Origin: Alistipes sp.
GTDB lineage: Bacteria > Bacteroidota > Bacteroidia > Bacteroidales > Rikenellaceae
DNA length: 47,059 bases
Assembly (NCBI GenBank): GCA_017938765.1
Contig: JAGBAX010000010.1
Coordinates: 1 to 47,059 of the forward strand
Direction of reading: 5' to 3'
Below the pieces are notes generated by a model that worked only from the letters and a program-made list of their open reading frames with translations, searched no databases and was not told where the DNA came from. This document shows, one piece after another, positions 39,615 to 45,449 of the stretch (position 1 is its first letter; the number at the start of each line of letters is the position of its first letter). A program made the position numbers and the translations under genes.

Positions 39615-39686
39615 GCTGAATTAGCTCAGTGGTAGAGCACTTCACTCGTAATGAAGGGGTCCCGGGTTCAAGTCCCGGATTCAGCT
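39615..39686 (+). tRNA. tRNA-Thr (anticodon CGT)
   Basis: A 72-nt cloverleaf: acceptor GCTGAAT with ATTCAGC, anticodon stem CTTCA/TGAAG with loop CTCGTAA giving CGT (reads ACG), T-arm CCGGG-TTCAAGT-CCCGG, discriminator T, no encoded CCA. A near-consensus -7 box (GATATTTG, 39596-39603) is close upstream. Its last 26 bases recur downstream. Confidence 0.95.
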
Positions 39687-39687
39687 C
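39661..39687 (+). repeat. 27-bp direct repeat copy 1 (tRNA-Thr 3' end)
   Basis: This is the T-arm and 3' acceptor strand of tRNA-Thr plus one base. An identical 27-base copy occurs at 39821-39847 and a 19-base piece at 40020-40038. Repeated tRNA 3' ends are typical of integrase attachment sites. Confidence 0.85.
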
Positions 39688-39688
39688 G

Positions 39689-39790
39689 TGACTGTGGGCT
39701 CGGACTCTCCGTTGCCCATTTTTTGCACTCTGATAACACCCCGGGACCCCCAAAGTCCTCCTTAACAAAGGAGGATTTAGGAGGATTTTA
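39689..39790 (+). repeat. About 100-bp direct repeat, copy 1
   Basis: Nearly identical to 40039-40140 (differences at a few bases). It holds gggctcggactctccgttgc, a T run and the hairpin tcctcctt-aac-aaaggagga followed by tttaggagg. The same hairpin type appears in the element at 23458-23478. Confidence 0.8.
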
Positions 39791-39820
39791 AATATGGTCC
39801 CAACGGGATGCGGTAGCATC

Positions 39821-39847
39821 CCCGGGTTCAAGTCCCGGATTCAGCTC
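39821..39847 (+). repeat. 27-bp direct repeat copy 2 (tRNA-Thr 3' end)
   Basis: Exact copy of 39661-39687, 160 bases downstream, not followed or preceded by the rest of a tRNA. It would be an attachment-site duplicate left by an integration or a partial tRNA duplication. Confidence 0.85.
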
Positions 39848-39861
39848 AGAGGAACATCAAG

Positions 39862-39966
39862 CAAACAAGTTACCACCCAATAGGGTGGTTTTTATTTTAC
39901 CACATCGCTCAAGTTTGCTTGAAAGCGATGTGGAAAAATAAAAACGACACAGTCGTAACTTGTTTG
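39862..39966. repeat. 105-nt cloverleaf-like palindromic element
   Basis: Outer 11-bp stem caaacaagtta/taacttgtttg (39862-39872, 39956-39966). Inside are three arms: ccaccc/gggtgg (39873-39888), a long arm pairing 39889-39909 with 39924-39944 (20 of 21 bp) capped by caag/cttg, and cgac/gtcg (39945-39955). Nearly every base is paired. The first arm followed by five T could also terminate tRNA-Thr. Confidence 0.8.
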
Positions 39967-40019
39967 AGAAGATACTCCCTTAGCGCACGGGACTCGCGGA
40001 AGTTTTTGCGAAACTTTCG

Positions 40020-40038
40020 CAAGTCCCGGATTCAGCTC
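40020..40038 (+). repeat. 19-bp partial copy of the tRNA-Thr 3' end
   Basis: caagtcccggattcagctc repeats the last part of the 27-bp unit. It is preceded by aaactttcg, and aaactttcgcaagtccc recurs at 40142-40158, so the two borders share a further 17-base repeat. Confidence 0.75.
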
Positions 40039-40140
40039 TGACTGTGGGCGCGGACTCTCCGTTGCCCATTTTTTTGCACTTTGATAACACCCGGGACCCC
40101 CAAAGTCCTCCTTAACAAAGGAGGATTTAGGAGGTTTTGA
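40039..40140 (+). repeat. About 100-bp direct repeat, copy 2
   Basis: Second copy of the unit at 39689-39790, 350 bases downstream, again placed right after a tRNA-Thr 3' fragment. The repeated arrangement (fragment plus module) points to duplication or repeated insertion of one element. Confidence 0.8.
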
Positions 40141-40184
40141 AAAACTTTCGCAAGTCCCATTTCTCGCATTATCTCCGTGCTAAA

Positions 40185-40216
40185 TTTGTTTTTTCGGGAA
40201 ATTTTTATTACCTTTG
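40185..40216 (+). promoter_or_regulatory. Promoter of the esterase operon
   Basis: TTTG (40185-40188), exactly 20 bases, TACCTTTG (40209-40216): a perfect consensus. The expected leader is about 45 bases to the ATG at 40267. Confidence 0.85.
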
Positions 40217-40266: not shown

Positions 40267-43200
40267 ATGAGAAAATTAGCACTATTTCTAATTCTGATGT
40301 TGGGGTGCGGTTTCGTTGCTTGTGACAAACAGGGCGACGATCTTCTTGAGCCTGCATACCCATCTCCAGAGGCGGTTATCGTGGATGATGACGCGTGTGG
40401 AGGAAACACCATTACAATCTGTTTTGATGGCAGTGCTGCTGAGAAGGCTGGAGCAACAAAGTTTGTCTCTACCCTTACCCCAGAGGGTTCAGCAGAGCCT
40501 ATCACTATGACAAAGGATGCAGGTCCTTCTACAGCTTGCGTTCACACCCACAAGAATCTTCCTATGGGTGTCTACACAGCTTCTGTACACGCTATATATC
40601 CAGATGGCACAGCTACAGACCCTGTATATGTAACAGACTCAAAGGGTAATATTGTAAAGCTCAAGCTGGCAGGCTCTAACCTTGCTGTGAAGTTTGCTTA
40701 TGCAACATCTTCAACTCTTGCCTTCTCTTGGAGTGCAAGTGGATTTAAGGATGCGGCAAAGGACCTCAAGACAGCTTATAGCTTTGGTCTCTACCGTGAT
40801 GCACAGTGTACAGACCTTGTTGTCTCTTGGGCATCAAAGCCAAACGAGCCAATCTGGGAGGATTTGGCAGACGGTTATCCACAGTTTGAGTTCTCTGGTT
40901 TGGAGAAGAACACAAGCTACTGGTTTGTAGTTGAGGATACAACAAACAAGACTGTTGCTGACCCTATTGAGGGTAAGACCCTTGACTTTACCGTTGTTGA
41001 GCCAAGCGCTACATCAAAGGTTGAGGTTGGCGGCATTGCTCTGGCTGAGGACTTTAGCGAGCTTGTTTGGGGTGGTAACTACCTACGTGGCTCGGCTGCT
41101 TACTCTGCTGACGACCGTAACCTTGCAACAGCATTTGACAAGGCTGAGGGCGTAAACCCTGTTGGCGGTGGTCCTTGGAAGTGGTATCTTGTTGCGCCAG
41201 GCGTAGAGATTGGTCTGTTCACAACAATGAAGAACGCTATTGAGAACTCTCGCCTTGCTACTTGGGGCTGCTGTAATGAGGTCTCTGGCGACACTACTTC
41301 TCCACTCTGCGGCCGTATAGGTCATATTAAGTTGGGCGCAAGCAGCAAGACTGGACTTATGTGTACTCCAGAGCTTGTAAACCTTAAGTCTGTGGCTACT
41401 ATTGAGGTGCAGTTTGACCAGGCTCTCTACGATTCTGACCCTACAACTGCTGCTGTATATGTAATCAGCAACTCAGAGCACGCTGGTAAGAGTGGCGCAT
41501 CATCTGTAACCCCTGCAATGGAGAACCTTACCCCTGCGGCAGAGTTCAAGATTAAGGCAGGCCGTACATTTACAACCGAGAAGATTGTCCTTACAAACGT
41601 AGAGCCAGGTGCGCGTATCGGTATCGGCCCTATCCGCAAGGATGGCTCAACTCCAGGCTCTTCTCAGCACCGTATGTACCTTGATAACGTTATTATTAAG
41701 GTTGTTGCTTACGAGGTAACTAAGACTCCACTTGACAAGCCAGTTATCGCTTCTGCCGTATCTACAGCAGAGCAGATTATGGTTAAGTGGAACAAGGTTG
41801 AAAACGCTACAGGCTATGTTCTTGAGTATAAGGAGAGTGCAGCACAGAATTACACTGTTGTAGAGCTTGACAAGGTACTTGAGTACACAATCACTGGTCT
41901 TAAGAGCGCTACTGAGTATCAGATTCGCGTTAAGGCTGTTGAGCCTGCTTCACAGAGCGAGTCAGAGTACTCTGATGTCTATACAGTAAAGACCGTTGCT
42001 AAGGCTTCATTCCCAATGACAGCATCTAATGCAGATGAGTTTATCGCTATCCTTAACAATGCTGACGGATTGCGTTCTGCAAGTGCTACTGACGAGATTC
42101 AGATTCTTGCTAACCTTAACTTCGCTGGTAAGACCCTGCCTGCAGGCCCTGTATTCACAGGTACACTTGTAGGTAATGGCCACACTATTAGCGGCGTTAC
42201 CTCAGACCACGCACTCTTCGCTACAGTAGGTAATGTTTCTAACCTTACTATTGATGAGAGCTGTACATTTACCGCATCAAAGGCTGGTCTTCTTGCTGCT
42301 CTTGCACAGGAGGGTGTAGGTACATTTACAAATGTAGTAAACAAGGCTAATGTAACTCTGGCTATCGCTGGTGATGGTGATGCTACTGTTGCTGTTGCTG
42401 GTCTTGTAGCTTCTGGAGAGGTTGCAATGGAAAGCTGTAAGAACTATGGTAACATCACTTACACCGCTGCGGGTGCATCTTATGGTGCTCTTGTTGGTGG
42501 TCTTGCTGGTTACAACAACGGAGCAATGAACAAGTGCGAGAACAACGGTAAGGTAACAATGAATGTTCAGACCCTCTCTGCATTTGGTGTTATTAAGAGC
42601 ATTGACAACCTGCCAATCCACATCGGCGGTCTTGCAGCACAGCTCGGCACTTCTGCTCCTATTACTGAGTCTACTAACAATGGCGAGGTTGATTACGACA
42701 TTACAAATATTGAGAAGATTGCAGTATCTTGCGGAACTAACCGCCCTCGTATGGGAGGATTGGTTGGTCTTACACAGAGCTCAATCACAAAGAGTGTAAA
42801 CAACGGTAAGGTTGATGTTAATGTTGTTACATCAGACGGCTCTGTATTCTCTGGTAAGAACTATCCAGTAAATGTTGGTGGTATCTCTGGTGGTGCTCCT
42901 GCAGATGCTTCTGGTGCTACAGGTGCAGATATCGTAGAGTGCGTAAACAACGGTGCAATTAACTGCGTATCATACTGTAAGGGTACACGACCAACTTGCG
43001 GTGGTATTGTTGGTTATCCAGGTTTTGAGGACCCTTCACAGACTAACCAGATTACCCGTTGCGAGAATAAGGGCGAGATGAAGGTTGTCTCTCACGACCT
43101 TATGCGTGCTGGTGGTATCTCTGGTGGCTCATCTAACGTAACTTACTGTAAGAACACTGGTACAATCATCGGTGGAATCACTGTTGAGGATGGTAATATC

Positions 43201-43626
43201 GGTGGTATTATCGGTTGGTTGGATAAGGGCCATAAGTTTGAGTACAACGAGAGCTACTGTACACTGAGCAACGACAGAGGTGGTTCTGGCGGTACTTCAG
43301 AGATTGGTGGTCTTATCGGTCAGCACGGTAACTACGACAGCTGCCCAGGTGAGGGTCGCGGTTGTAAGGTTAAGTGTGATATTACTTACGACTATAGCAA
43401 TGAGAAGTGGTATGGTATGATTCTGGGTTACTACTGGTCAACATCTAACACTGTTGTTCTGGGTACTGAGGATGAGCCTATCATCGTTCTTGGTGGTAGT
43501 ATGACCTATGCAGGTGGTACAACTCAGGTTACTGCAGAGAACTATCAGGAGTATACAAACCACAGCTCTGCTGGTGGTAAGTCTGGTAGCAAGCCATTTA
43601 CTGTTCACGTAAAATTCGGAGAATAA
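40267..43626 (+). CDS. Large FN3/GLUG-like surface lipoprotein
   Basis: A 1119-aa lipoprotein. The promoter and signal peptide favour ATG at 40267 (lipobox FVAC, Cys19) over the longer frame. Residues about 30-260 look like FN3/Ig-type domains, about 270-510 a beta-rich domain with several Cys, about 515-605 a clear FN3 domain (VKWNKVENATGYVLEYK, YTITGLKSATEYQIRVKAV). From about 610 to 1060 GLUG-like beta-helix repeats follow (GTLVGNGHTISGV, VGGLAGYNNGAMNKCENNG, IGGLAAQ). Codons resemble those of rplY (GGT, GTT, AAG), suggesting high expression. First gene of a three-gene operon. Confidence 0.85.
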   Translation: MRKLALFLILMLGCGFVACDKQGDDLLEPAYPSPEAVIVDDDACGGNTITICFDGSAAEKAGATKFVSTLTPEGSAEPITMTKDAGPSTACVHTHKNLPMGVYTASVHAIYPDGTATDPVYVTDSKGNIVKLKLAGSNLAVKFAYATSSTLAFSWSASGFKDAAKDLKTAYSFGLYRDAQCTDLVVSWASKPNEPIWEDLADGYPQFEFSGLEKNTSYWFVVEDTTNKTVADPIEGKTLDFTVVEPSATSKVEVGGIALAEDFSELVWGGNYLRGSAAYSADDRNLATAFDKAEGVNPVGGGPWKWYLVAPGVEIGLFTTMKNAIENSRLATWGCCNEVSGDTTSPLCGRIGHIKLGASSKTGLMCTPELVNLKSVATIEVQFDQALYDSDPTTAAVYVISNSEHAGKSGASSVTPAMENLTPAAEFKIKAGRTFTTEKIVLTNVEPGARIGIGPIRKDGSTPGSSQHRMYLDNVIIKVVAYEVTKTPLDKPVIASAVSTAEQIMVKWNKVENATGYVLEYKESAAQNYTVVELDKVLEYTITGLKSATEYQIRVKAVEPASQSESEYSDVYTVKTVAKASFPMTASNADEFIAILNNADGLRSASATDEIQILANLNFAGKTLPAGPVFTGTLVGNGHTISGVTSDHALFATVGNVSNLTIDESCTFTASKAGLLAALAQEGVGTFTNVVNKANVTLAIAGDGDATVAVAGLVASGEVAMESCKNYGNITYTAAGASYGALVGGLAGYNNGAMNKCENNGKVTMNVQTLSAFGVIKSIDNLPIHIGGLAAQLGTSAPITESTNNGEVDYDITNIEKIAVSCGTNRPRMGGLVGLTQSSITKSVNNGKVDVNVVTSDGSVFSGKNYPVNVGGISGGAPADASGATGADIVECVNNGAINCVSYCKGTRPTCGGIVGYPGFEDPSQTNQITRCENKGEMKVVSHDLMRAGGISGGSSNVTYCKNTGTIIGGITVEDGNIGGIIGWLDKGHKFEYNESYCTLSNDRGGSGGTSEIGGLIGQHGNYDSCPGEGRGCKVKCDITYDYSNEKWYGMILGYYWSTSNTVVLGTEDEPIIVLGGSMTYAGGTTQVTAENYQEYTNHSSAGGKSGSKPFTVHVKFGE

Positions 43627-43630
43627 AACT

Positions 43631-44434
43631 ATGAAAAAGATATTTTATTTATTGAGTATGGTTATGTTGTTTGCTGTTGCCTGCGACAAGGATAACACAA
43701 ACAACGAGGAGCAAATCAAGGCTCCAACAGCGCTTGAGTATGCAAGCGTAACTATCGCTGACCACAACGCTATTGTTATTAAGCCAGAGGATATCGCTCC
43801 AAATGCACCAGTTGTAGTTGTTGCAACAAAAGACCTTGAGCTTAAGACTCGCGCTGCGGAGCAGCTTGATGTAAACTTTAAGGCTGCCGAGCACTGTCTT
43901 ATCGGAAACTATATCCTATGCATTGTAGAGGTTGGTAATGATGCCGATGCATCGTTCTTGGCAGAGGTAAAGAATTCATTCTCTTCTGCAACAAAGGCAT
44001 ACTTGCTCAGCTATCGCAATGAGTATGCATATACAGCAGCTATGCAGATTCCTGATACATTCAACGCCTATGGTTGCGTGTCAGCGACTATGAATGCTAC
44101 TACTTATGCTGCAAATAACTTCACAAAGCCAGTATCATTTGTTCATGTACACGCTACAGAGAACTCTCTGTATAAGTGGTACGGTGTTGAGCCAAACTAT
44201 GTTGCTGTGCCTTTGTGCGTAGGTGCTCTTGTTGCTATCAACGAGTGTACACACTACACTACTGGCGAGCTTCTTCCACGTGACGGTATGGGTCTTGTAT
44301 CCTATACTAAGTATCTTGGTGGTAAGGATGGTCACGAGGTTGTTCTCTACTCTGTAGATGGAGCAAACGAGGGCTGGTGCGATGCAGAATTTGAAGTTTA
44401 TAACCAAATCTGGAATTTCTTTAAAAATCATTAA
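43631..44434 (+). CDS. Pseudo-esterase lipoprotein, paralog of the next gene
   Basis: A 267-aa lipoprotein (lipobox AVAC, Cys18) whose body aligns with the esterase encoded next to it: PEDIAPNAPVVVVA with PTDLPADAPLVFIL, PVSFVHVHATEN with PVAFMEVHGTGD, VAVPLCVGALVAINEC with LAVPVAVGAVAAANKC. The catalytic positions are lost: GMSNG becomes SYRNE (Ser141 to Arg129), Asp192 becomes Asn178 and His265 becomes Glu247; the HGYGG oxyanion segment is missing. It is thus likely a non-catalytic binding or scaffolding protein. It starts 4 bases after the large lipoprotein gene. Confidence 0.85.
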   Translation: MKKIFYLLSMVMLFAVACDKDNTNNEEQIKAPTALEYASVTIADHNAIVIKPEDIAPNAPVVVVATKDLELKTRAAEQLDVNFKAAEHCLIGNYILCIVEVGNDADASFLAEVKNSFSSATKAYLLSYRNEYAYTAAMQIPDTFNAYGCVSATMNATTYAANNFTKPVSFVHVHATENSLYKWYGVEPNYVAVPLCVGALVAINECTHYTTGELLPRDGMGLVSYTKYLGGKDGHEVVLYSVDGANEGWCDAEFEVYNQIWNFFKNH

Positions 44435-44439
44435 TCAAT

Positions 44440-45303
44440 ATGAAGAAGTTTATATTCATACTGTCAGCACTCTTTGTATGCTATGCAGCTAGTGCTGGAT
44501 CGCTCAAAACAGAGACTATTGAGGATCAGGGTGTTACAAGATCATACTATGTTTACTTGCCAACAGACCTTCCAGCAGATGCACCGCTGGTGTTTATCCT
44601 TCACGGATATGGAGGTAGCGCAAATGCATATGTAAACAACTCATCACTTACCTTCAAGCAGCTTGCAGAGGAGTATAAGGTTGCTCTTTGCTACCCACAG
44701 GCAACTACCGACCCTCGTCCAAACACTGGTTGGAATGTATACTACCCTTGGCAGATTGACAAGATGAAGATTGATGATTGCGAGTTTATCTGCAACCTTG
44801 CAAAGCACCTTCACACAAAGTACAACCTTTCGGCAAAGAACACCTTCCTTACAGGTATGTCAAATGGTGGTGAGATGTGCTACCTGATGGCTTATCGTAA
44901 GGCAAGTGAGTTCGGTGCTATTGCATCAATGGCGGGCCTTACCCTTACAGAGATGGCAAAGCGTCACGACTATACTACCCCAGTAGCATTTATGGAGGTA
45001 CACGGTACTGGCGATATGACCTCTCGTTGGGAGGGCGACCCTACAAACCAGTATGGTTGGGGTGCTTACCTTGCAGTTCCTGTTGCAGTAGGAGCAGTTG
45101 CTGCAGCAAACAAGTGTATGTATCAGGAGACTACCGTGCTTCCAAAGATTAAGAATCAGGTTATCTTCCACCGCTACTATGGCTCGCCATATGGCAAGGA
45201 GGTACACTTCTACGAGGTTCGCAATGGTGGTCACAACTGGGCAACAGATTCATTTGACTCTTGCCGCGTAATTATGGAGTTCTTCAAGAGCAACATGAGA
45301 TAG
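44440..45303 (+). CDS. Secreted alpha/beta-hydrolase, LpqC/CE1-like esterase
   Basis: A 287-aa secreted esterase of the polyhydroxybutyrate-depolymerase/feruloyl-esterase (CE1, LpqC) type. A cleavable signal peptide ends near AASAG. Oxyanion motif HGYGG (55-59), nucleophile Ser141 in GMSNG, Asp192 in HGTGD and His265 in NGGHNW form a complete triad. Likely substrates are acetyl or feruloyl esters on plant polysaccharide, but the sequence does not tell. It lies 5 bases after the pseudo-esterase gene and is followed by a terminator. Confidence 0.9.
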   Translation: MKKFIFILSALFVCYAASAGSLKTETIEDQGVTRSYYVYLPTDLPADAPLVFILHGYGGSANAYVNNSSLTFKQLAEEYKVALCYPQATTDPRPNTGWNVYYPWQIDKMKIDDCEFICNLAKHLHTKYNLSAKNTFLTGMSNGGEMCYLMAYRKASEFGAIASMAGLTLTEMAKRHDYTTPVAFMEVHGTGDMTSRWEGDPTNQYGWGAYLAVPVAVGAVAAANKCMYQETTVLPKIKNQVIFHRYYGSPYGKEVHFYEVRNGGHNWATDSFDSCRVIMEFFKSNMR

Positions 45304-45324
45304 ACTACCCCCAGCAATATTTAG

Positions 45325-45351
45325 ATAGGAGAGCCGACAAAGCTCTCCTAT
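45325..45351 (+). terminator. Intrinsic terminator of the esterase operon
   Basis: ataggagagc (45325-45334) pairs with gctctcctat (45342-45351), 7-base loop, then a run of seven T. Confidence 0.9.
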
Positions 45352-45449
45352 TTTTTTGCGTATAGTCGTTTAGCCTGCAAAAAGAAGACTTTCATCCCCT
45401 TTTTATGCCGTTTCGCGGTGCTTTTTGGAGGTAAATTGCACATATTTAC

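Follow-up and report, generated by a model that had tools for sequence, protein, structure and literature searches.

Organisation of the operon

The window (the whole 47,059-nucleotide stretch of an Alistipes sp. contig analysed here) holds on its + strand, between 40185 and 45353, a promoter, three genes and a terminator-like hairpin that together read as a single transcription unit (Table 1). The genes encode a very large mosaic lipoprotein (P0001), an esterase homologue that is itself a lipoprotein and lacks the catalytic residues (P0002, here called the twin) and a predicted exported esterase (P0003). Their coordinates confirm the spacing of 4 bases (P0001/P0002) and 5 bases (P0002/P0003) given in the initial annotation; across the 11 loci measured the first gap amounts to 4-6 bases and the second to 5-8 bases, and the P0002-P0003 gap reaches 20 bases in genome G066 and 29 bases in G045. 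The promoter had been described as perfect, which it is when judged against TTTG-N20-TACCTTTG, the form that we take to be the Bacteroidota-type consensus and to which it corresponds exactly. The same exact form was found at 5/14 trio loci, and a TAnnTTTG element lies within 150 bases at 12/14 (the exceptions being L008 and L015). Hairpins of the terminator-like type number 2 in the stretch, against 0.1 expected.

Table 1. Features of the three-gene operon (window coordinates)
Feature	Position	Strand	Remark
Promoter TTTG-N20-TACCTTTG, presumably Bacteroidota-type	40185-40216	+	exact match
P0001, mosaic lipoprotein, 1119 aa	40267-43626	+	
P0001 FN3 domain, residues ~488-578	41728-42000	+	
P0001 GLUG-like repeat region (short beta strands), residues ~610-1018	42094-43320	+	model secondary structure
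P0002, dead esterase homologue, lipoprotein, 267 aa	43631-44434	+	
Arg129, nucleophile position of P0002	44015-44017	+	Arg in 10/15, Cys in 5/15 orthologues
Asn178, Asp position of P0002	44162-44164	+	Asn in 15/15 orthologues
Glu247, His position of P0002	44369-44371	+	His in 0/15 orthologues
P0003, exported esterase (predicted), 287 aa	44440-45303	+	triad Ser141/Asp192/His265
Terminator-like hairpin, operon end	45323-45353	+	12 pairs

Just upstream of the operon (39615-40153 of the window) lies a tRNA-Thr gene. Its 27-base 3' end recurs after it (exact at 39821, 74% at 40012), and so does a 64-base repeat whose copies stand 350 bases apart. A tRNA-linked island was considered and dropped, as a tRNA gene occurs at only 3/13 of the other trio loci, its kind or place differing.

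The three genes had also been credited with strongly biased codons resembling those of ribosomal-protein genes, and on a sample this proved right. The codon adaptation index (CAI) of P0001, P0002 and P0003 was 0.746, 0.702 and 0.767, respectively, the reference being 25 genes (a cut rpoA included) from this genome's ribosomal-protein region, whose own leave-one-out values had a median of 0.722 and ranged from 0.521 to 0.847; rplY reached 0.820. Within a set of 71 ORFs taken partly from the window and partly from four further regions of its genome (picked mechanically, some of them probably being no genes) the trio ranked 6, 8 and 5 in codon bias.

The live esterase

P0003 passed the Pfam cut-off for Esterase_PHB (PF10503; 34.9 bits, cut-off 23), and its catalytic triad, the GxSxG nucleophile motif and the HGYGG oxyanion loop are kept in 14/14 aligned orthologues. 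It differs from the PHA depolymerases, remaining under the respective NCBIfam cut-offs (NF050058, 122.5 against 150; TIGR01840, 84.2 against 107.85). The best of its seven matches among solved sequences were feruloyl and acetylxylan esterases (PDB 8jh8, 8iy8 and 5x6s), which it resembles, as it does Esterase_PHB, in retaining triad and oxyanion loop; a PHB depolymerase-family esterase (8daj) also figures among these relatives, below the best ones. Another esterase paralogue of the window's genome is located directly 3' of a gene for an acetyl xylan esterase, AXE1 (L116:5234-7413), and this placement and the nearest solved enzymes suggest a link to plant cell-wall esters. The most likely substrate of P0003, as judged from its relatives, would be small ester groups of the plant cell wall (feruloyl or acetyl), an assignment made uncertain by the presence of 8daj.

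By reading of the sequence, the signal peptide of P0003 ends in ASA and is without a lipobox, and the protein is thus predicted to be exported and non-anchored; with such a plain signal peptide it may be periplasmic. Cys14, which lies inside the signal peptide (window 44479-44481), is invariant in 11/11 orthologues, with no lipobox around it.

The dead lipoprotein twin

At the positions of Ser141, Asp192 and His265 of P0003, the twin carries Arg129, Asn178 and Glu247, and the HGYGG loop is absent, in agreement with the losses that had been proposed for it. The catalytic triad is missing from 15/15 P0002 orthologues (14 taken from the alignment and one read separately), and the oxyanion loop from 14/14 aligned. 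The lipid anchor ascribed to P0002 is likewise in evidence (lipobox AVAC, with Cys18 invariant in 11/11 aligned), and both the lost triad and this anchor set the twin apart from Esterase_PHB-type enzymes. His172 and His174 are invariant among the 14 aligned twins, which moreover share invariant stretches specific to them, such as residues 82-92 and 248-265. In the 14 twins whose codons were read, residue 129 is encoded by CGY or TGY, and on a tree of 14 twins it has changed at least 5 times. Asn occupies the His position in 4/5 Cys-form twins, against 1/10 Arg-form twins, which looks like lasting co-variation within the former active site.

The statement that P0002 aligns with P0003 across the whole fold held well for the C-terminal half and weakly for the N-terminal one. 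BLASTP aligned residues 114-266 only (28%, E=1e-9), and a profile comparison spanned 1-266 (E=1.1e-21). Taken alone, residues 115-267 reached a profile score of 123.8 (controls at most 21.1), and residues 30-128 a score of 24.0 over 30 aligned columns (maximum of 20 column-shuffled controls 16.8). Homology to the esterase, as seen from these profiles, is very strong for the C-terminal half and is indicated on weak evidence for the N-terminal half; a Pfam scan of P0002 assigned no family. The AlphaFold2 prediction (from an 11-row family alignment) had a mean pLDDT of 46.8, too poor for superposition or patch mapping, and was used for strand order and the class of structure matches only. The visible part of this poor model looks like an alpha/beta hydrolase, so that P0002 did not turn out to lie outside this fold, though at such a pLDDT the test was a weak one.

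The giant lipoprotein

P0001, whose lipid residue is Cys19 (by reading), had been called repeat-rich. This stands at the protein level, where the region of short beta strands (as seen in the modelled secondary structure) that follows the FN3 domain probably forms a beta helix; we looked for a tandem DNA array in the gene and found none, and GLUG (PF07581), which fell on two stretches, remained below its Pfam cut-off (17.3 against 20.5). The Foldseek and VIA match lists consist mostly of matches to the FN3 domain and barely cover the repeat part. The protein is a mosaic: its residues 3-588 resemble lipoproteins of genomes G149 and G160, while G003 has a 791-aa lipoprotein whose tail is similar to residues 573-1118; in these three genomes, which carry P0001 modules, a full-length match to the twin profile is absent. 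At the same operon position, G070 (L117:6503-8824) encodes a short form of 773 aa, without about residues 135-486, and a similar short form is present in G169.

After the lipid cysteine, the residues of P0001 (CDKQGDD) and P0002 (CDKDN) are acidic, with no exact match to the Bacteroidota surface-lipoprotein export motifs S(D/E)3, K-(D/E)2 and QA(D/E)2 (PMC6222051).

Distribution and evolution

We searched 180 genomes of the genus, that of the window among them, with the twin profile, which matched 57, 15 of them over the full length (456-522 bits); the other matches were partial, mostly to the shared esterase half, and did not exceed 83 bits. The trio-type esterase was found in the same 15 genomes (565-648 bits, the next best anywhere being 306), and P0001 in these 15 as well as in G074, where the genome is 58% complete and the contig ends within the P0001 gene. 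The genome search suggested by the initial annotation thus recovered the trio together in 15/15 genomes having the twin, in a single gene order and with flanking genes that differ between genomes; the refuting case named there, genes that never occur together, did not arise. Outside the genus, no full-length twin was found in the samples of 393 order and 395 class genomes (which overlap, and both include the window's genome as their sole full-length match), other genomes giving partial matches of at most 72 bits. Within the sampled genomes, the trio seems to be strictly associated and confined to one genus. The named records in which relatives turned up are metagenome genomes of Rikenellaceae and Alistipes; cattle or goat hindgut figures in 5/10 titles.

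The twin is under purifying selection (dN/dS 0.09-0.27, 10 pairs), and its evolutionary rate is about twice that of the esterase. In a tree with other esterases (31 distinct ones, from which 7 rows were excluded, one fragment and six distant; L040, L078-L083) the twins form one clade (support 100/100, branch 2.21); this tree is unrooted and does not indicate the parent esterase of the twin.

Functional interpretation

Encoded together with a live esterase and a very large lipoprotein, the dead copy has apparently been retained for a non-catalytic job. We tentatively favour, as a possible account of the locus, an envelope esterase system that would be abundant. P0003 would be its working enzyme, soluble and most likely acting on feruloyl or acetyl esters of the plant cell wall. 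P0002, having lost catalysis and bearing a lipid anchor, would now be a non-catalytic partner that either pairs with soluble P0003 and so keeps it at the membrane, or presents the substrate to it; the large lipoprotein P0001 would contribute binding or adhesion. The pairing, the location and the substrate are inferred. In the genomes sampled, the soluble esterase is not found apart from its anchored dead homologue, which most simply indicates a partnership, and the account is supported by the co-inheritance in 15 genomes, the fixed gene order amid varying neighbours, the dN/dS values, the single twin clade, the codon bias, the nearest solved enzymes of P0003 and the paralogue next to AXE1. Several observations count against it: neither P0001 nor P0002 has an exact export-motif match, about residues 135-486 of P0001 are dispensable (as the two short forms testify), the tight coupling of genes 2 and 3 is not universal (given the wider gaps in G066 and G045), and the twin evolves faster than the esterase. 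A stricter form of this account, in which the two proteins make up an obligate esterase-pseudoesterase pair (the dead homologue acting as membrane anchor or allosteric subunit) within a lipid-tethered heterocomplex with P0001, appears doubtful to us.

The main rival would place the function of the twin in its old cleft, making it an independent ligand-binding lipoprotein (in the manner of a surface glycan-binding protein) that binds its ligand, whether phenolic or sugar ester, and passes it on with no contact with the esterase. We regard this as somewhat doubtful. It fits the odd conservation of the dead site, which is peculiar and not random (the Asp is replaced by Asn throughout, the Ser always by either Arg or Cys), as well as the twin-specific invariant stretches (e.g. 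residues 82-92), but the P0002 prediction is too poor to show the cleft that it invokes. That the twin has retained or gained other chemistry, for instance through a cysteine nucleophile, is improbable: a Cys at the nucleophile position in 5/15 twins and the two invariant histidines would speak for it, yet 10/15 have Arg at that position, the residue there has changed repeatedly on the twin tree, none has His at the triad position and the oxyanion loop is gone. It is also conceivable, albeit unlikely, that the three proteins are merely co-expressed in one response and each act alone, the twin being a lipoprotein of a general kind whose new role has nothing to do with the esterase. Simple co-regulation would equally lead us to expect the co-inheritance of the three genes, which counts against the favoured envelope system, and shared regulation alone could explain the strict linkage; P0001 modules, furthermore, are present elsewhere without the twin. 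Against independent action stand the relatedness by descent of twin and esterase and the finding that, in 180 genomes, neither the twin nor the trio-type esterase occurs without the other.

Relation to known systems

A dead homologue next to a live enzyme is a familiar theme, and animals possess dead proteins of the alpha/beta hydrolase fold (e.g. neuroligins) that keep an esterase fold without catalysis and serve in binding at the cell surface or membrane. A neuroligin (8g81) is among the structure matches listed for the P0002 model, and the likeness would lie in a non-catalytic esterase fold kept at the surface or membrane for binding; P0002, by contrast, is a bacterial protein with a lipid anchor, and its live homologue is encoded next to it. 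We do not claim a shared ancestry of the loss. Our literature search found no description of this lipid-anchored esterase version of the theme, as a pair or as a trio, and the initial annotation knew of none. Where a pseudo-enzyme and its live homologue are encoded side by side, one can ask directly why the dead enzyme is kept. The present case offers a small pair whose co-inheritance has no exception among the genomes seen, whose expression is apparently high and of which 15 natural variants are available. If the twin does anchor or tune the esterase, it would add a route of envelope-enzyme assembly in gut Bacteroidota that bypasses SusC/SusD.

With Sus-type lipoproteins P0001 has in common that it is large and beta-rich, and its N-terminal part resembles a lipoprotein encoded beside a TonB receptor and a SusD protein; the trio differs from Sus-type systems in having no SusC or SusD among its three genes and an esterase homologue as its middle member. 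The lipoprotein in question, which carries the P0001 N-terminal module, belongs to the window's own genome (L126:4196-15889), where a calcineurin-like phosphoesterase also lies beside it, and the four genes (lipoprotein, TonB receptor, SusD, phosphoesterase) occupy codon-bias ranks 1, 3, 4 and 7 of the 71 ORFs.
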